Virus record (IMG/VR): IMGVR_UViG_3300046004_001785
Location: 1-31,806 of that record
Source of the DNA: a virus
Strand: one strand, 5' to 3'
Length of the DNA stretch: 31,806 nt
The notes beneath the pieces were generated by a model. That model was not told the DNA's origin, made no database searches, and worked only from the letters and a program-made list of their open reading frames with translations. The position numbers and the translations under genes are program-made. Below are positions 18,002 to 31,751 of this stretch, one piece after another; the stretch's first letter is position 1, and the number at the start of each line of letters is the position of its first letter.

Positions 18002-18358
18002 TTATTTTTTTTCCATAATAATATATGTTATACTAGATTCACCAACTACTTCAACATAAGCTGAAACTATTTTATAACCATTATATGCTAAGAAATTTAC
18101 AGCATCAATAGTTGAATTGAAAATAATTACATTACCATCTTTATCTTTTATTTTAAGCTCTTGTTGGTTTGTAAATATTTTACTAGCTTGGCCAGCGTCT
18201 AAAGTTACATTAACTTTGGTACTCATTATTTTTGGTCTAACAGAGATGCTAATATAAGGAACATTAAGTTCCGATACTGGAACATCATTGATAGTTTGTG
18301 CATTGCTAGAGAATGCGATTGCGATTGCGGCCAGAGCCGTTAAGATTGTTTTTTTCAT
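18002..18358 (-). CDS. Small secreted protein with signal peptide
   Basis: I start this gene at the ATG at 18358, where the product begins MKKTILTALAAIAIAFSSNAQ, a textbook signal peptide with cleavage expected after SNA. An upstream ATG at 18391 would overlap the promoter and bury the signal. The mature ~97 residues have a beta/alpha pattern (ISISVRPKIMSTKVNVTLDAGQ, then DAVNFLAYNGYKIVSAYVEVVGE). The hydrophobic core and AQ cleavage style look like host Bacteroidota periplasmic proteins. It has its own promoter and terminator, so it is a monocistronic early gene. Export of a phage early protein suggests envelope modification or superinfection exclusion (inference). No family is recognised. 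Confidence 0.78.
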   Translation of the reverse strand: MKKTILTALAAIAIAFSSNAQTINDVPVSELNVPYISISVRPKIMSTKVNVTLDAGQASKIFTNQQELKIKDKDGNVIIFNSTIDAVNFLAYNGYKIVSAYVEVVGESSITYIIMEKK

Positions 18359-18388
18359 TTTTTTATTGGTTTTTAAATTGTTATGGTA

Positions 18389-18420
18389 CAAAGGTACGGA
18401 TTATTTTTGAAACTTGCAAA
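18389..18420 (-). promoter_or_regulatory. Host-type promoter of the secreted-protein gene
   Basis: On the minus strand TTTG (18417-18420), 20 bases, TACCTTTG (18389-18396): an exact match to the Bacteroidota primary-sigma consensus TTTG/TAnnTTTG. The predicted start site lies about 25-30 bases before the ATG at 18358. Confidence 0.85.
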
Positions 18421-18883: not shown

Positions 18884-20431
18884 TTAATTTTTATATTGTT
18901 TTATTAAGTACTCAATTTCGTCTTCAGTAGTTGTGTCATCAATAAGTCCTAAAAAAGAGTATATGTTAGATTCAGATATACCTTCGTTGAATAATCTTCT
19001 CTTAAGGGCACCAGCTTCGATTTTAGCAACTTTTTTCTCTTCGGTGATAGTTGATACTATAACTGGCTCAACCTTCGTTAAATCGTTTTTAATTGAGTCG
19101 TTTGAACAAACTAATTTACAAGTGAAGTTTATTGAGTTGAAATATTCATTGGCAATCTCTAAAATGCGGGAGACATCTCCCGTTTTTACAATTAATGAAT
19201 CGTGTTTGGTTAAACAGAAGAAACCTTCTTCTTTGATATTCTTCCAAATATTATCAATAAACATCTCAGATTCAAACTTTTGAAGCATAACTGCAAATTC
19301 TTCATATCCATTTTCTTTTTTATAGTCATCAATCCAAGTTACCACATTAGGAAATAATAGCTTTAATTTAGCTTTAGCAGTAGTACGATTGTTTTGGTGA
19401 GAGAATAATAATTCAAACATTGCTGTTTTGGCCTTTTTTCTTGTCTCTAATGATAGTTCTTCTTGAATATAGGTATAGAGTTCACCAGAGATACAAAGTT
19501 CTTTAAAACGTTTAAAATCGGCCTTATCTTTAAGTTCATCAATTTGACCCAATATATGGCTTAAGATACTAAATTGAGAATTAGATAAATCAATTTGAAT
19601 TAAATCATTATCTTTACAGATGATATCAGTAAGATTAGAACATAAGTTTGTTATGTTAGTATCAAGTCTACGATTTCTATCATTACGTGATGCTAACCAA
19701 AATTCTTTAGATAATTTAAGTACTGATTCATCATATGCTATTTTAATAGCCTTTTTCTTCATTGTAATGAACTCATCTTCATTCATAAGGTAGAAGTTCA
19801 TTTTATCTTGGATAATTGATTTGTTGGTCTCTCTTGCTCTTATTATAGCTTTATCTTTAGCCATAAAGTATTTATACATTCCTTTTTCACTATAAGCTAT
19901 TAATTCAAATGAATTTTCTCTTATGTCTTCATTAGTTTTAAATTCACTAATAGATAATGAATTTACTCTTTCATTGATAACTTTAAAAAGTTTATCTGAA
20001 TCTATATTTAATTGTTTTAAATCTTCAGATACCATATCACGTATTAGTTGATATTCCTCATCTTTAATAAAAACGGGAGACAGGTACGATATTATACCAC
20101 TTGTTGTATTGTTATAATAATAATTATTAATAGAATAAGATTTACATATACCTTTATAAGTTGAATAATGATTATCAACTGTTATAATGTTATTCTCTAT
20201 TAAAACAGATAACCATTCTCTATAATGATTATTGAAAGCTTTTGTTATGTAAGTAAAAGGTATATCAACTGATGATATATGATTACCATATTTACGAAAT
20301 GATTTGTTTCTAATAACTTCAATGAATCTAATTGAGTTATGTAATTGAGCCTTTGTTAGAGGTAATGACTTTAAATCATTTATTAAAGTCGATGGTAGGT
20401 AAGAAAACCTGTTTTGTTTTGTTTTGAACAT
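18884..20431 (-). CDS. Putative replicative polymerase, family A/T7-RNAP-like palm (TV-Pol-like)
   Basis: The N-terminal ~110 residues (SYLPSTLINDLKSLPLTKAQLH, then HYREWLSVLIENNIITVDNHY) look like a winged-helix replication-initiator region. The C-terminal half carries a set of palm motifs: an Arg-rich strand NRRLDTNITNLCSNL at residues 253-267, motif A with Asp281 in IDLSNSQFSILSHIL, motif B with Arg331 and Lys335 in RKKAKTAMFELLF, and motif C with His410-Asp411 in CLTKHDSLIV. This combination fits the superfamily of family A DNA polymerases and T7-like RNA polymerases, especially the reduced TV-Pol group of mobile elements and viruses (Iyer, Abhiman and Aravind 2008). No exonuclease or helicase domain is visible, and no other replication enzyme is encoded here, so this is the likely replication protein. 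Its 5' leader holds a strong hairpin. Confidence 0.62.
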   Translation of the reverse strand: MFKTKQNRFSYLPSTLINDLKSLPLTKAQLHNSIRFIEVIRNKSFRKYGNHISSVDIPFTYITKAFNNHYREWLSVLIENNIITVDNHYSTYKGICKSYSINNYYYNNTTSGIISYLSPVFIKDEEYQLIRDMVSEDLKQLNIDSDKLFKVINERVNSLSISEFKTNEDIRENSFELIAYSEKGMYKYFMAKDKAIIRARETNKSIIQDKMNFYLMNEDEFITMKKKAIKIAYDESVLKLSKEFWLASRNDRNRRLDTNITNLCSNLTDIICKDNDLIQIDLSNSQFSILSHILGQIDELKDKADFKRFKELCISGELYTYIQEELSLETRKKAKTAMFELLFSHQNNRTTAKAKLKLLFPNVVTWIDDYKKENGYEEFAVMLQKFESEMFIDNIWKNIKEEGFFCLTKHDSLIVKTGDVSRILEIANEYFNSINFTCKLVCSNDSIKNDLTKVEPVIVSTITEEKKVAKIEAGALKRRLFNEGISESNIYSFLGLIDDTTTEDEIEYLIKQYKN

Positions 20432-20474
20432 TTGTTTATTCCTTTATTATTGTGTTATACCCTTATTTGTTTTA

Positions 20475-20517
20475 CTTGGGAAAGGAACCAGCTAGGAGCT
20501 ACCCAGCTGGACCCAAG
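20475..20517 (-). other. Nested hairpin in the 5' leader of the polymerase gene
   Basis: CTTGGG (20475-20480) pairs with CCCAAG (20512-20517); inside, CCAGCT (20488-20493) pairs perfectly with AGCTGG (20505-20510), giving two 6-base stems separated by a 7:1 internal loop. It is the most GC-rich point of an AT-rich region. It lies in the untranslated leader between the promoter (20541-20571) and the ATG at 20431. It may be a riboregulator of the polymerase mRNA or a replication origin hairpin. Confidence 0.6.
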
Positions 20518-20540
20518 GCAATCATCGCTGATTACATTTA

Positions 20541-20571
20541 TAAATATAACACATTTTTAAAAAAGGTCAAA
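20541..20571 (-). promoter_or_regulatory. Host-type promoter of the polymerase gene
   Basis: On the minus strand TTTG (20568-20571), 19 bases, TATATTTA (20541-20548). The downstream block deviates from TAnnTTTG only at the last base. The predicted leader is about 100 bases and contains the nested hairpin. Confidence 0.65.
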
Positions 20572-21275: not shown

Positions 21276-21812
21276 ATGAAAGTACAAAAAATAACCAATC
21301 AAGAATACAAATTCTTCTCTGCTTCAACAACTGAAAGACAATGTATACTTCACCTTAACTCGTTTCAAGACTTTACAATCACACATATCAGCAAGATTGA
21401 AGGATATGATAGCTGGGATGTGGTTTACGTATCTGGTGGTACCAACAATCTAGCTGAAATAAAAGTAAGAAATAAATTTATTGATGGGTATCCAGATTAT
21501 ATTATCGAAGAAAAGAAGTATAATGAGTTAATAAGACTCACTTCAACCGACAAAGCGAAAGCAAATAACCTTCAACCAATCTATATCAATTTCTTCTTTG
21601 ATGGATGTGTTATATGGAATCTAAATGAAGTTGAATTAGAGTTTAAACCAATGGATATGCCATCCAACTCTCAAACAACAAATTACACCAAAAGCAAATC
21701 TTGTGCTTTACTTAGACCAAAAGATGGCCATATTATAAGATATAACACTGATATAACTAAAAGACAAGAAGAAGCAATAACAATAATGAAATTCCTATTC
21801 CCAAATAACTAA
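21276..21812 (+). CDS. Putative PD-(D/E)XK nuclease-like protein
   Basis: The 178-residue product has the arrangement of the PD-(D/E)XK fold core: Asp48 in DSWDVVYVSGG, then Glu61-Ile-Lys63 in LAEIKVRNKF, a helix with a possible Lys/Glu pair (IIEEKKYNELIRL) and a following strand IYINFFFDGCVIWNL. An earlier Glu20 could complete the site. Such small nucleases in phages act as recombination or Holliday-junction-type enzymes. The fold call is from motif order only. It ends one base into the sigma gene (TAATG), so the two are coupled, and it is the first gene of the rightward early unit. Confidence 0.5.
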   Translation: MKVQKITNQEYKFFSASTTERQCILHLNSFQDFTITHISKIEGYDSWDVVYVSGGTNNLAEIKVRNKFIDGYPDYIIEEKKYNELIRLTSTDKAKANNLQPIYINFFFDGCVIWNLNEVELEFKPMDMPSNSQTTNYTKSKSCALLRPKDGHIIRYNTDITKRQEEAITIMKFLFPNN

Positions 21813-22558
21813 TGGACTACAAAGAATATATGCGTAAAGCACCAATCAATACCAACGAACAAAACATTGAATATATAAACCAAGGTAATTATGATGCTGT
21901 CGTTAACGGTAATCTACGTTACGCAGCAATGATGGCCAACAAATATGGTAAGGTAAATAACTACGATGACTTAATGCAAGAAGCAATTATAGGTCTTTGG
22001 AATGCTGCACAAAACTTTGATACCTCAACCAATCACTCATTTGTTGTTTATAGCAGCTGGTATATCAAAAAACAAATATTCGAATATTTTGATAGTAATA
22101 AAACAATAAGAATACCAAACCATATCAAAAGACAAATATCAACTTTCAATAAATTAAGTGAAAATGAATACTTTAATATTTATGACCATCAAGAAGATTT
22201 TGATAAATCGGTATTTGATTATTTTAAAGACCCTATAAGCACTTATAGCATTGATGTGCCAGATATTACTCACTATAGTGTTAGACCTCAGGAAATCGAA
22301 GATAAAGTGGTAAATTTCGAAGATTATGAATCAGAAGACATTACCAAAAAGATAATAAACAAAATTGTTGATGAATTAAAGCCAAGATATAAATTTATAG
22401 TAACCCATTACTACGGATTAAATGATGTTGAACAATTAAATACAAACCAAATAGCAAAGAAATTGGGTATAAGCAGACAAGCCGTTCACGACCAATTATT
22501 AAGAATCCAGGAAAAAATTAAAAAGAATTTATCAAATTATCCAGGTTTTTTAAAATAA
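21812..22558 (+). CDS. Phage-encoded sigma-70-like factor
   Basis: This 248-residue protein has sigma region 2 at residues ~35-100: an N-terminal helix RYAAMMANKYG, the core-binding YDDLMQEAIIGLWNAAQNFD, and SFVVYSSWYIKKQIFEYF, the -10 recognition and melting helix with its W-x-x-K-K pattern. Region 4 is at ~200-245: a helix-turn-helix LNTNQIAKKLGISRQAVHDQ, then RIQEKIKKNL. A ~60-residue acidic linker lies between, and region 1.1 is absent, as in late-gene sigma factors of phages. It should bind host RNA polymerase and direct it to new promoters. The repeated late element in front of nine transcription units is the natural candidate target. Confidence 0.88.
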   Translation: MDYKEYMRKAPINTNEQNIEYINQGNYDAVVNGNLRYAAMMANKYGKVNNYDDLMQEAIIGLWNAAQNFDTSTNHSFVVYSSWYIKKQIFEYFDSNKTIRIPNHIKRQISTFNKLSENEYFNIYDHQEDFDKSVFDYFKDPISTYSIDVPDITHYSVRPQEIEDKVVNFEDYESEDITKKIINKIVDELKPRYKFIVTHYYGLNDVEQLNTNQIAKKLGISRQAVHDQLLRIQEKIKKNLSNYPGFLK

Positions 22559-25652: not shown

Positions 25653-28600
25653 ATGCAATCATATAATCAAATTAAATCAGCACTAAGTCAATTTGCTAAC
25701 GCTCACTTATCTCTTCGTAGATTTAAGATGAGCTTCTTTGAGCAAATGCCGAACTTTAGCACAGCTGATGAAACATTCCCAATACTTTATGCAATACCTA
25801 ACGATGTTAGCCTTGAAGAGAATATAAACGTATTCTCATTCCGTATATATGTTATTGACCTTCTTCAAAAAGATAGAAGCAACGAAGCTGACGTATTGAA
25901 TGATACTTTACTTATTCAACGTGACTTACGTAACTGGTTAGCCCTTGGCCAAAACGACCTTAATGTTCTTAATAACCCTACAGCTATACCAGTTAATAAC
26001 TTCCTTATGGATTTTACAGCTGGTTGGTATATGGATGTTGACCTTGAGGTTGATACAGAAAACAATGATTGTTCAATTCCATTTAGTTCTAACTTTGTTC
26101 TTACTGGATTAACTTGTGATTTTTCTTATGCAAGTCCATATTTAACTTGCCAAACATTACAAGATTGCCAAACGATACTTAATATTGAAGGTGATATAAC
26201 AAACATATATGATATCCTTTCAACAATATCTGGTGGTACTGGTGCCGATTATTGGACCTCTGGTAGTACTGGTAACTATTCAGTTAAACAAATAACTGAT
26301 ACAGCAACTGATGCTTTAGGTGATTATAGTGTGGCTCAAGGTATCTCTACAATAGTTTATTCTGTTGCTTCACACTCAGAAGGTGAAGGTGGTATAGTTA
26401 CAAATTATGCTAGTCACGCTGAAGGGCAAGAAACAATAGCTGGTAAATTTATTGAAGTATCAACATTAAATACAGAAGAAACTGAAATAATTATAAATGG
26501 AGATTATACTGGCTTTTTTGAACTTACACAAAAAGTTATAACACTTGATTCAGCTAATAATACTCAAGACTACAGTAATGCTTTAATAGATATAGTTTAT
26601 GATAGTATAAATGACCTTACAATACTTACTTTTAATATTGGTTTTTATTTATCTGAACCACCAGCATACATATTAGTTAAACCAAATTATGGTTATACAT
26701 CTCACGCTGAAGGTGATTATACTAAAGCAAGCGGTGATGGTAGTCACGCTGAAGGTAATACTACATTAGCTATAGGTAGTTTTTCACATTCTGAAGGTGA
26801 GAATACAATAGCCAAAGGCCAATCATCTAACGCTCAAGGAGCAAGTACAAAAGCTTTAGGTGATTATTCTCACTCTGAGGGTGTTGGTTCACAATCTATC
26901 GGTCAAACATCTCACGCTGAAGGTACAAGCACAATTGCCAGCGGATTTACTTCACATTCTGAGGGCCAAAATACACAAGCAAATGGTGACGTATCTCACG
27001 CTGAAGGTAAAGAAACTGAAGCAAATGGATTTATCAGCCACGCTGAAGGTTTTAGAACTAAAGCTAACGGTGAATTATCACACGCTGAAGGTTTTTACTC
27101 AGAAGCAAACGGATATGGTTCATTTGTAAATGGTGATACCAATAAAGCTAATGGTACTTATTCAGCTATCTTAGGTGGTGTAAATAACACATTGGATGGT
27201 AACTATTCAACTATATTAGGTGGACAAAATATATCTGGTACAACTGATTATACTACTTATGTTCCTTACTTGAATATTTCAAATATAAACTCTTCAGCTG
27301 GTGATGTATTGGGTCGTGACCCAATTACTGGTGAAGTAGTTATAATAACAAGCTTAGGTAACTACCTTCCACTATCTGGTGGAACAATGGATGATAATGC
27401 TATCATTTTTTTTAACAATGGTAGTGCTCTTCAAGAAGGTAATTATGACTTTGGTGGCCAAGGCGGTATAAGCCAAATCTGTTCTGTTGCTTTTGAACTT
27501 AACTGGCAAGCTGGTAGTGAATATGTATTCGATAACAACGGCTTAATACGTATTGCACAATTCAAGTTTAATACAGCCCCAGATGTTAACTCTGACTCAT
27601 CTCAAAGATTTAAAGTTGGCTCACGTTGGATATTAGATGATGGCACAAGCTACGTTTGTACTGACAATACTGTAGGTGCTGCCGTTTGGAATTTAGAAGC
27701 AAATGGAACAACTGTTACTGGTGTAACTTGGAGTCCAAATACGCTTACTGTAGCTCAATCTGATGGTTCTACTTATGATGCAACTATATCAGCATTCACA
27801 GCCTTTAATTATACCGATGGTGGACAACAATTAGGCCGTATTTTAACATCTGATGCTAATGGTAATGCCAGCTGGCAAGTACCAACTGTTGGTACTTCCC
27901 TTACTTATTTCTTCAATAATTTATCGGCTGGTACCAGCACATATTATCAAGCTAAGACAGATGTTCAATTTCAAGCACTTGAAACTATAACTAATTTAAA
28001 CGTAGTTAATAATCAATTTCTTGCTGGGTTTATTACTGACGCTGGACAACCAGGATTAACCTTTATACCAGGTGGTATAGTTAACCTTCACATTCACGCT
28101 GCTAATACCAATAATGGTAAAGATACCGAGTTATACTTTGAGCTATACAAGAGAACAACAGGTGGTACTGAGACGTTGATGGGAGCATCAAATCTTACAT
28201 TAACACTTGGAAATTTACAATCTGGTGTTGAAACTGATTTAGCAATAACAGCTACCACTCTTAATGTAACAGATAGACTTGTAACCAAAGTGTATGCTAG
28301 GGTAACAGGTGGTGGCCCAGCTCCTCATATTGATTTATATCTTGCTGATGCTACTTTATCAAGAGTACAAATACCAGCACCAGTACTTAATTTTACCAAT
28401 TACGTTCCATATAGCGGAGCAACAAGTGATGTTAACTTAGGTACCCATTCATTGATAGCAACAACAATATCAGCTACAACTTATCAAGGGCTTCCAGTAT
28501 ACGCTAGATTAAATGATAATGATATAGTAAACTTCTTCAACTACTGTGGATTAGCAATCTCTGGCACAAGTCAGAATAGCCCAACGTGGCAAATTAGTAG

Positions 28601-28974: not shown

Positions 28975-30171
28975 ATGGCAATAAGATACGTAACAGCAAG
29001 TGGTGTATGGTCAAATCCAGCAATATGGGATGGTGGTGTAGCATTACCAACAGCTGCTGATGATGTATTCAGCAATAACTTTATAGTTACTGTAGACCAA
29101 GACATTACTGCCTCAAGCTTAAGAAATACATCAAATGCCGCTCCTGTAATAGCTTCTGGTGGTTATTTTAATGTCACAGGTAATACAGGAACCAGAGCTA
29201 TAACATTAACTGGAACAACAGGTACTGGTGGTAGCTCCCCTTCTGGTATATTCTCTTTTGATAACGTTACAGCTGCCTTTAGGATAGCATCAACATCTGG
29301 TGCAACTGTAAACGTGTCTAGCCCATTAGGTGCCCCACAAACAGGTATTGGTTCAACGGCAGAAATCACAGGTAATGCAACTATAAATTGGGTTGGTACA
29401 TATAATATAGCTATTGGTTTCTATCGACATTGGTTTATCAACACCCCAGCGGCCAATGGTACACTTAATATAGTTGGTAATATATTAGGCGGTGCTAGTA
29501 CTACTTTAGGTGTAATTAATCAAACAGCAGCAAATTATACAGTAAATATAACGGGTAATGTGACTGCTGGTTCAAATGCTGGTATTCTAATACAAGCAGC
29601 ATCAATTATTAATGTCACTGGTAATGTAACTGGTGCCGCTAATAATGGAATAACATTTAATGGCGGAACTGCAACAGTAACGGTAACAGGTAATGTGAAT
29701 GCTGGTACTGTTGCTGGTATTAGTAATAACTCTACAAACTCAACATTTATTATTAACGGTAATGTAACAGCAAGTTCTGCTAATAATGGTATAATTGGTA
29801 ACGTAATTGGTACATTGGTTACAGTAAATGGTAACCTAACCAATACTTCCAATTATATGGCGGTACTAGCATTAAAAATGCGAATATCTCCAACAGCACA
29901 ACAAACTTGGACTTATCAAACAGCTGGTCCTAACAGACAAATGTTCACGGCCAATGCATTTAGTGGTGGAACAATGCCTGTAGCGTCTGATGTTAGATTA
30001 GGTGTTAGCTATGCTGGTGGCTCTTTGTCTGGTACCTGTGCCGTCCCTTCAGCTAATAGTGTAGCCTTTGGTGTACCAGTAGATAATACAACGGGTAATG
30101 CAGTGATAACAAGAGCACAGTTATTTTCAGATACTGGAGCAATCATAGCAGCTTACCCTCAAATCAATTAA
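28975..30171 (+). CDS. Beta-helix fibre-like virion protein (paralogue A)
   Basis: The 398-residue product starts RYVTASGVWSNPAIWDGG, LPTAADDVF, TVDQDITASSLRN: a cap-like domain resembling the N-terminal strand pattern of G8-like extracellular beta-helix proteins. The centre is a run of NITGNVT/VTVTGNVNAG rungs of a right-handed parallel beta-helix. The last ~95 residues (KMRISPTAQQTW to AAYPQIN) form an end domain shared with paralogues B and C. Its likely place is the virion surface as a receptor-binding or decoration fibre. Bases 29377-29576 are identical to bases 29-228 of the contig, while flanking parts diverge. Confidence 0.72.
   Translation: MAIRYVTASGVWSNPAIWDGGVALPTAADDVFSNNFIVTVDQDITASSLRNTSNAAPVIASGGYFNVTGNTGTRAITLTGTTGTGGSSPSGIFSFDNVTAAFRIASTSGATVNVSSPLGAPQTGIGSTAEITGNATINWVGTYNIAIGFYRHWFINTPAANGTLNIVGNILGGASTTLGVINQTAANYTVNITGNVTAGSNAGILIQAASIINVTGNVTGAANNGITFNGGTATVTVTGNVNAGTVAGISNNSTNSTFIINGNVTASSANNGIIGNVIGTLVTVNGNLTNTSNYMAVLALKMRISPTAQQTWTYQTAGPNRQMFTANAFSGGTMPVASDVRLGVSYAGGSLSGTCAVPSANSVAFGVPVDNTTGNAVITRAQLFSDTGAIIAAYPQIN
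29377..29576 (+). repeat. 200-base exact repeat of contig bases 29-228
   Basis: Bases 29377-29576 equal 29-228 without a mismatch at a constant offset of 29348. Before base 29 the two differ completely and after base 228 they are about 85 percent alike by eye. The exact block is either a real recent gene conversion or the place where the assembler joined the ends. Confidence 0.9.
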
Positions 30172-30183
30172 AAATTATTAATT

Positions 30184-31362
30184 ATGGCAACAAGATATGC
30201 GGTAGCTAGTGGAGTTTTTAGTAATACAGCAACTTGGAATGGTGGAACATTACCAACAAGTGCTGATGATATATATACGAACAACTTCAATGTTACAGTC
30301 GACCAAGATATAACAGCGATTACCCTTAGAAATATATCTAACGTCTCACCAGCAATTGCAGCTGGTGGCCAATTTATAGTTACAGGTAGTACAGGAACAA
30401 GAGTTATAACATTAACAGATATAACTAGTGGTGTTAGAAGTAATAGTTCGACTGTGACTACAACAGCAATCGTAATAAATTCAACTTCTGGTGCAACAGT
30501 AACGATAAACACTAATTTTAATAATACTGGTCTTAGTCAACAACAAGGTATATTCTGTAACGGAAATTGCACGGTTAATATAGTTGGTAGTTCTACAGGT
30601 GTCTATGGTTCGTTTTTTTCTAACAATACGAATGCAAATGGAGGAACACTTAATATAGTTGGTAATATAAGCGGGAATATATTTGCTGGAAGTGGTTCTC
30701 TTATACTAGGTGCTACTAATTACACTACTAACATAACAGGTAATGTAACAGGTAACGCAGGTTGGTGCATTACGACCAATTCTACGACCATAAATATAAC
30801 TGGAAACGTATTTGGGTCTACTGACAATGCAATTGCAGCTGTTTCAAGCTGTGTCATAAATATAACAGGTAATATAACCTCAGGTGCGGCACAGGCTATT
30901 GGTGGTGGTAGTGCTACTGCTGCTGCTGGTAACATAACAGTAACAGTAAATGGCAATATCACCTCAAGCTCGACAGCAGCAGCTATATCTACAACTAACG
31001 TGAACTCGACAGTAACAGTAAATGGCAATCTAATAAACACTTCAGATGTGATGGCATTGTATTCACCTAAATTCAGAATATCGCCAACAGCACAGCAGGC
31101 TTGGACATTCCAGACAGCTGGTCCTAATAGACAAATGTTCACGGCTAACGCATTTAGTGGTGGTACAATGCCAGCTGCTTCTGATGTTAGGTTAGGTGTT
31201 AGCTATGCTGGTGGCTCTTTGTCTGGTACTTGTGCTGTACCATCAGCTAATAGTGTAGCCTTTGGTGTACCAGTTGATGCAACTACAGGTACTTCACTAA
31301 TAACAAGAGCTCAATTCTTGACGGATTTGGGTACAATAGCGGCTGGGTATCCACAAATATAA
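30184..31362 (+). CDS. Beta-helix fibre-like virion protein (paralogue B)
   Basis: The 392-residue product has the same three-part layout as paralogue A: cap (RYAVASGVFSNTATWNGG, PTSADDIYTNN, VDQDITAITLRN), a central helix of NITGN rungs with a different sequence and pattern, including a few Cys (CNGNCTVNIVGS), and the shared end domain (MALYSPKFRISPTAQQAW to AAGYPQI). The end domain is more similar to A than the centre is. This pattern, conserved ends and diverging centre, is what host-range fibres show when the centre binds receptor. It starts 12 bases after A and stops two bases before DUF1353. Confidence 0.72.
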   Translation: MATRYAVASGVFSNTATWNGGTLPTSADDIYTNNFNVTVDQDITAITLRNISNVSPAIAAGGQFIVTGSTGTRVITLTDITSGVRSNSSTVTTTAIVINSTSGATVTINTNFNNTGLSQQQGIFCNGNCTVNIVGSSTGVYGSFFSNNTNANGGTLNIVGNISGNIFAGSGSLILGATNYTTNITGNVTGNAGWCITTNSTTINITGNVFGSTDNAIAAVSSCVINITGNITSGAAQAIGGGSATAAAGNITVTVNGNITSSSTAAAISTTNVNSTVTVNGNLINTSDVMALYSPKFRISPTAQQAWTFQTAGPNRQMFTANAFSGGTMPAASDVRLGVSYAGGSLSGTCAVPSANSVAFGVPVDATTGTSLITRAQFLTDLGTIAAGYPQI

Positions 31363-31364
31363 GA

Positions 31365-31751
31365 ATGAATATTAATACAGAAAAATTTATTTACGAAGAT
31401 AGCGATGATGAAAAAAAACAAGATTGTTTTTTGATTAACAAACCTATCAAATATGTTCTAAGCAACAATAAGGAGATAATAATACCAAAGGGTCTTGAGA
31501 CAGATTTTGCGACAATACCAAGGTTCTTTTGGCGTTTATTTCCCCCTCACTTAAAGAAGTATAGGCAAGGTGCCGTGGTTCACGATTACTTGTATATGAC
31601 AGAGGATATAATAGTAAGTAGAGCTTTTGCGGATGCAGAGTTCAGAAGAATACTAATTAGTAAAGGTACTGCCAAATGGCAAGCTTGGTTATTTTGGTTT
31701 GTTATTAGGTTATTCGGAAATAAAAGATGGAAAAATTATAAAAATAAATAG
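31365..31751 (+). CDS. DUF1353 family phage protein (copy 2)
   Basis: The 128-residue product has the same DUF1353 core as copy 1: GLETDFATIPRFFWRLFPP, AVVHDYLYM, FADAEFRRIL and the C-terminal WQAWLFWFVIRLFGNKRW. It differs from copy 1 mainly at the N-terminus (extra acidic residues) and the last ten residues. It directly follows a fibre-like paralogue, as copy 1 does, so the pair is a duplicated cassette. The gene after it is not the same as after copy 1. Confidence 0.85.
   Translation: MNINTEKFIYEDSDDEKKQDCFLINKPIKYVLSNNKEIIIPKGLETDFATIPRFFWRLFPPHLKKYRQGAVVHDYLYMTEDIIVSRAFADAEFRRILISKGTAKWQAWLFWFVIRLFGNKRWKNYKNK

Follow-up and report, generated by a model that had tools for sequence, protein, structure and literature searches.

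What is the 515-residue open reading frame in the middle of the virus record IMGVR_UViG_3300046004_001785, and does it replicate the phage that carries it? The window, which is the whole stretch of DNA that was analysed (31.8 kb), has a siphovirus-type gene set, and the frame runs uninterrupted over exactly 18884-20431 of the minus strand. It gave no meaningful score against the Pfam, PHROG, NCBIfam and PADLOC profile libraries and no match in a sequence search of the PDB; by sequence, it is recognised by no named family. A sequence-only reading had noticed in it the palm motifs of family-A polymerases behind a winged-helix-like N-terminus. The motifs A (D281, in IDLSNSQ), B (R331xxxK335xxxF339xxxF343) and C (H410-D411-S412) are indeed all present in the family-A order. 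An AlphaFold2 model computed from the 52-sequence alignment A4 (pLDDT 81.5, pTM 0.74) contains the expected palm as part of a palm/fingers domain, together with a winged-helix N-terminus in which a helix-strand-helix-helix-wing pattern spans residues ~27-101. Judged from the sequence and this model, the frame encodes a diverged family-A polymerase that has a winged-helix N-terminus; its predicted parts are as follows.

18884-20431, minus strand: polymerase gene, 515 aa, with winged-helix N-terminus, helical thumb-like region, family-A palm/fingers and helical C-terminal tail
20117-20404, minus strand: winged-helix-like domain, residues ~10-105 (AlphaFold2 secondary structure, mostly high pLDDT; a second polymerase subfamily aligns across the region)
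19643-19672, minus strand: GR..(S/T)...NL hairpin, RRLDTNITNL, residues 254-263, with the invariant R255 (homologue alignment, profile comparison)
19562-19603, minus strand: motif A, residues 277-290, with the invariant D281 and NSQ (homologue alignment)
19397-19441, minus strand: motif B, RxxxKxxxFxxxF, residues 331-345 (homologue alignment, profile comparison)
19193-19216, minus strand: motif C, residues 406-413, with HDS at 410-412 (homologue alignment, profile comparison)

The aspartates D281 and D411, whose conservation was critical to the sequence-only reading, are invariant in 52 of 52 homologues, as are R255, S285, Q286, G316, Y319, K335 and E387; H410 is kept in 51 and S412 in 48. Position 331 is R or K among the 52 homologues and is not strict, being A in one close relative. 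Most of these loci were retrieved by the patterns GR.HTN or DI.NSQ, so the conservation of R255 and D281 is partly a matter of ascertainment. K335, E387 and D411 lie outside the retrieval patterns, and R255, D281, K335 and HDS are also kept in homologues found without motifs (tblastn matches and Flavobacterium relatives).

The region upstream of the gene bears directly on its function. A similar structured region was first noticed there in the window and in the Flavobacterium genome G201, and then before other Flavobacterium homologues. Its elements follow in the order P1a-P2a-loop-P2b-bulge B-P1b-linker-B'-start codon, and a promoter-like box immediately precedes them.

20429-20535, minus strand: structured 5' leader of the polymerase gene (covariance model, covariation, folding)
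20518-20535, minus strand: leader hairpin P0
20512-20517 with 20475-20480, minus strand: leader helix P1
20502-20510 with 20488-20496, minus strand: leader helix P2
20481-20487, minus strand: bulge B, TTCCTTT, 5' half of the proposed pseudoknot (B/B' complementarity)
20439-20445, minus strand: B', AAAGGAA, 3' half of the proposed pseudoknot, 7 nt before the start codon (B/B' complementarity)
20541-20571, minus strand: Bacteroidota-type promoter-like TTTG-N19-TATATTTA, just upstream of the leader (putative, read from the sequence)

A covariance model, R1, was built from six unaltered sequences and one mis-trimmed one (L122), with the window left out, and it found the window leader at E 6.6e-7. 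A second model, R2, was built from unaltered matches and used for all genome scans. Over ten matches, 95.7% of the cells are paired and 10 of the 14 pairs show changes on both sides; compensatory cells number 38, compared with 12.2 in shuffles. Fitting of the alignment to the structure works in the structure's favour, but the shuffle control retains the same columns. When the structure is slid along the alignment, pairing drops to 28-56%. In 17 of the 19 scored loci, B and B' are fully complementary over 6-7 nt, and B itself takes at least 13 different sequences; the chance per locus is 0 to 0.07, one partial case apart; two copies of B' are often present in these loci. Folding of the window leader alone gave a z of -2.66. 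A strict structure parser could not handle two sequences whose helices are imperfect, and its scores for simple shuffles were at times comparable; we therefore rest the argument on the covariation counts and the B/B' complementarity. No Rfam 15 covariance model matched the leader. On this comparative evidence, it is a previously uncatalogued folded RNA whose helices covary strongly, and the pairing of B with B' is proposed as a pseudoknot. It was not found with the jumbo-phage members of the family, with the distant bacterial members or with 3 of the 14 Flavobacterium homologues.

Where else the leader occurs is informative about what it precedes. When 249 Flavobacterium genomes were scanned with R2, the eight strongest matches all lay directly before a polymerase of the family. 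Five weaker real matches preceded a second polymerase subfamily (two) or winged-helix initiator-like genes (three), and in these five B/B' is full in four and 6/7 in one, though R2 does not include B'. The second subfamily, with motif A DYxxLHPN, matches the family profile at E 7.7e-14, the winged-helix part included. The three swapped genes encode proteins of 242-272 aa with winged-helix character, and the label initiator-like stands for weak HTH matches (best E 0.005) together with our reading of the sequences. In one prophage with the leader, an initiator-like gene takes the place of the polymerase, while its head genes share 47-79% identity with those of polymerase-bearing prophages. Gene exchange behind a constant leader in a constant backbone is a usual sign of functional equivalence, so the swap and the initiator-like proteins support a replication role. 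These comparisons suggest that the leader might be a swappable 'replication control' cassette before unrelated replication genes, and the analogy with plasmid rep leaders suggests that it could act by translational control. Two other matches, L348 and L350, were rejected as lying inside unrelated coding genes, and a leader-pattern scan of viral contigs gave one match, a false one in GC-rich repeats. Wider Flavobacteriaceae and Bacteroidota samples yielded nothing else credible. The leader therefore seems to be restricted to elements of Flavobacterium, and this also hints at the host of the phage. The Bacteroidota setting given by the sequence-only reading holds, the phage being of the Flavobacterium type.

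The polymerase itself is spread more widely, its relatives spanning jumbo phages, Flavobacterium prophages and non-phage integrative elements. With tblastn, a Hymenobacter plasmid gave a homologue at E 9e-5, and uncultured jumbo phages, 595-735 kb in size, gave others at E values down to 9e-11. Alignment-based scans gave 41 bacterial loci, mostly from Bacteroidota with some from Planctomycetes and Verrucomicrobiota, and 125 viral relatives, 80 of which are listed as loci. Of the 249 Flavobacterium genomes, 14 carry a homologue; in three it is a close one, with 45%, 42% and 42% identity along the matched stretches. The 42%-identical homologue of G201 belongs to a complete ~35 kb prophage that interrupts a comM-like gene and carries a large serine recombinase at one of its ends. 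Another, in G179, lies in a ~28 kb non-phage element that is also in a comM-like gene, has a large serine recombinase and carries apparent metal-resistance genes (named by eye). These two homologues are about 40% identical to the window protein over its length. In G258 and G236, a large serine recombinase, likewise named by eye, follows directly 3' of the polymerase gene.

The sequence-only reading had seen no exonuclease, helicase or primase beside the gene, and Pfam and PHROG scans of its neighbours likewise found none. A Walker-A scan identified the terminase as the sole P-loop ATPase ORF of both the window and the G201 prophage; no recognisable P-loop helicase is thus encoded in either. 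The polymerase appears to be the sole replication gene of the phage, and it is unusual for a polymerase to carry out replication when no helicase is encoded with it. A search for iteron-like repeats near the gene found none. Comparing the leader, the gene swap and the missing helicase across loci, we infer that this is the replication gene of its element. Our preferred reading, which we consider probable though well short of secure, is that the frame encodes a fused winged-helix/family-A polymerase that replicates the phage, is gated by a pseudoknot leader and uses the host helicase. It draws on what was computed, namely the polymerase fold and motifs, helix covariation, B/B' complementarity, the lack of a phage P-loop helicase and the exchange of downstream genes, and would add to these origin binding, catalytic activity, a direction of translational control and the making of the first primer. 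A bolder form is doubtful: a one-protein replicon whose winged-helix/family-A polymerase would both bind the origin and prime itself with no phage helicase or primase, behind a pseudoknot leader that would be a general swappable cassette of Flavobacterium phages and integrative elements.

Alternatively, copying of the phage could be left to the host replisome, with the protein serving as an accessory, primer-dependent DNA polymerase in repair or gap filling, the role proposed for divPolA2. The Barba-phage polymerase of the divPolA2 group is among the structural neighbours (E 2.2e-5), divPolA-type enzymes occur beside a regular polymerase (PMC11348598), and in jumbo phages no recognisable replication gene cluster surrounds the family members, which are adjoined by an S-AdoMet-lyase-like gene and genes not recognisable as replication genes. 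We nevertheless find this reading fairly unlikely for the window, where no other phage replication gene was recognised and where the leader and the phage backbone are common to unrelated initiator-like genes, as expected of a replication gene and not of a repair gene. The role of the polymerase may differ across the family, given the jumbo-phage neighbours and the H. qilianensis plasmid; the member on that plasmid was considered as its sole Rep and rejected, a separate replication initiation protein being annotated there.

If the polymerase is the phage replicase, its gene would be transcribed from its own promoter, and the leader would fold into P1 and P2, with B pairing to B' at the ribosome-binding region. 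The pseudoknot might alternate between blocked and open translation, most simply blocked when formed, and the second B' copy of some loci could be an alternative partner. Once translated, the winged-helix domain would probably recognise an origin in the phage DNA, where the minimal family-A polymerase, without an exonuclease, would synthesise DNA; because the phage encodes none, the helicase and other factors would come from the host. The gating would work in principle as in the rep-gene leaders of IncI-type plasmids. The passage on repZ of the IncI-alpha plasmid ColIb-P9 in PMC10724649, citing Asano & Mizobuchi 1998, describes an RNA pseudoknot leader, so that there, as proposed here, a pseudoknot precedes a replication initiator gene. 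The layout of the repZ leader seems to differ from that of the phage leader, in which the pairing segment is a 3' bulge set between the stacked helices P1 and P2, with B' positioned at the start codon.

The leader could instead work as DNA, as an origin hairpin or a binding site, since it adjoins a replication gene and origins can be DNA hairpins. This seems unlikely to us: the element lies in every case on the coding strand, immediately ahead of the start codon and 3' of the promoter-like box, its B' occupies the ribosome-binding region, and some of its pairs are G-U, all of which argues for the RNA.

Another issue is which kind of polymerase this is. Motif C does read HDS, as the sequence-only reading had noted, but the leaning towards T7 RNA polymerase that it drew from HDS did not hold up. 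That the protein is a single-subunit RNA polymerase of the T7 or N4 kind transcribing phage genes is very unlikely, although HDS is the T7 RNA polymerase form and weak single-member or family-profile matches point the same way (PHROG 'RNA polymerase' E 7e-4, N4 RNAP2 E 1.1). In a Foldseek search of the PDB, the top 50 matches were all family-A DNA polymerases (best E 3.1e-5, probability 1.00), among them T7 DNA polymerase, Bst, Taq and polymerase theta; whole-chain TM scores are low, about 0.3, which we attribute to differing N-terminal parts. Viral models gave E 1.4e-19 and 6.6e-15, the second annotated 'putative DNA polymerase I', and these best matches are 400-aa proteins. Comparison of family profiles also favours DNA polymerases, at E 8.5e-4 vs 0.074 for T7 RNA polymerases, and aligns the residues of motifs B and C with those of the DNA polymerases; against single T7 proteins, hhalign gave too weak a signal to use. 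T7 RNA polymerase has the forms DxSCSGxQ in motif A and RxxxKxxxMxxxYG in motif B. Neither these motifs nor the profile of T7-like single-subunit RNA polymerases fits the present protein, in which HDS is the only common feature and position 339, at K+4 of motif B, is F/Y in 42 of 52 homologues, the Pol I pattern. A sigma-factor-like protein of the phage also points to use of the host RNA polymerase. On the whole, sequence and model place the polymerase nearer DNA than RNA polymerases. An inactive core, leaving the winged-helix part as a plain initiator, would suit the swapped leader-bearing genes that encode only winged-helix-like proteins of 242-272 aa but is extremely improbable, given metal-binding aspartates, K335 and R255 that are invariant across very diverged sequences.

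Within DNA polymerase family A, the protein has the palm/fingers fold, the two metal-binding aspartates and (R/K)xxxK of the superfamily. It shares with DNA polymerase I and T7 DNA polymerase the fold, the GR...NL hairpin, RxxxKxxxFxxxY/F and the HD of motif C, but differs in lacking a 3'-5' exonuclease, in HDS instead of HDE, in motif A DxxNSQ and in family profiles that stay below threshold, including DNA_pol_A (PF00476). TV-Pol (PMC2579912) is similar by description: it too is a minimal family-A core without a nuclease, in which a thumb, a hairpin arginine, a pair of palm aspartates and (R/K)xxxK fingers are combined, and it too occurs in phages and in mobile elements that carry serine resolvases or integrases. 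The N-terminus is all-helical in TV-Pol and winged-helix here, and a D5-like helicase is neither fused nor adjacent here; standalone TV-Pols have also been described (PMC2579912, Iyer et al. 2008). MAP_030 of Microcystis phage Ma-LMM01, tried as a TV-Pol reference, showed no match and no motifs and is possibly the wrong gene. The CcPol-MP/PolA-SSB primases of SCCmec-like elements (PMC7581432, PMC10061031) are likewise family-A polymerases serving large-serine-recombinase elements, and related elements here carry apparent metal-resistance or BREX cargo. They belong to Bacillota, whereas the present polymerase belongs to Bacteroidota, has its own winged-helix domain, no identified OB-fold partner and, in the phages examined, no helicase; for the first primer, CcPol depends on a partner protein (PMC7581432). 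By analogy, the polymerase might work like TV-Pol or CcPol. The divPolA1 and divPolA2 enzymes (PMC11348598), of which divPolA1 is known from Flavobacterium phages, are also diverged family-A enzymes without an active 3' exonuclease, but, compared by description, they coexist with a regular polymerase in larger genomes.

If the preferred reading is correct, many Bacteroidota phages and integrative elements would rely for their replication on a polymerase family that escapes current profile libraries, and Flavobacterium elements would share a folded RNA controlling whichever replication gene follows. The leader could then serve as a search handle for unrecognised replication genes, their control could be tested by small compensatory mutations, and the plasmid idea of copy control by a leader RNA would extend to phages.

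Several observations were made along the way. The second polymerase subfamily with the leader is unannotated at L351 8622-10433 and L352 8307-9950, with motif A DYxxLHPN and motif C VYDAL. In large phages, a conserved 440-aa protein without a Pfam match precedes the polymerases of the family, and a conserved 177-aa S-AdoMet-lyase-like protein follows (L017 11002-11535), with relatives in at least 20 other viral loci. The G258 element (L326, L331) combines the polymerase, a large serine recombinase and a BREX-like defence cluster (named by eye). Polymerase-bearing phages and non-phage elements share the comM-like (YifB) gene as an insertion site, in G201 (L320, L329), G179 (L322, L330) and L128. 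In the window, 21812-22558 encodes a phage sigma-70-like factor (PHROG 351, E 3.3e-30) with relatives in Flavobacterium prophages, 18002-18391, near the polymerase gene, encodes a 129-aa protein with a signal-peptide-like start (KKTILTALAAIAIAFSSNAQ), and 26689-27176 holds ten 42-nt tandem units, SHAEG-type repeats in a 1009-aa probable tail/adhesin protein. Repeated genes at the window start (29-328, 470-769, 841-1140) are 73-96% identical to copies at the other end (29377-29676, 29818-30117, 31012-31311, 31404-31703), so the assembly probably broke inside a repeat and the genome is near-complete, perhaps circularly permuted.
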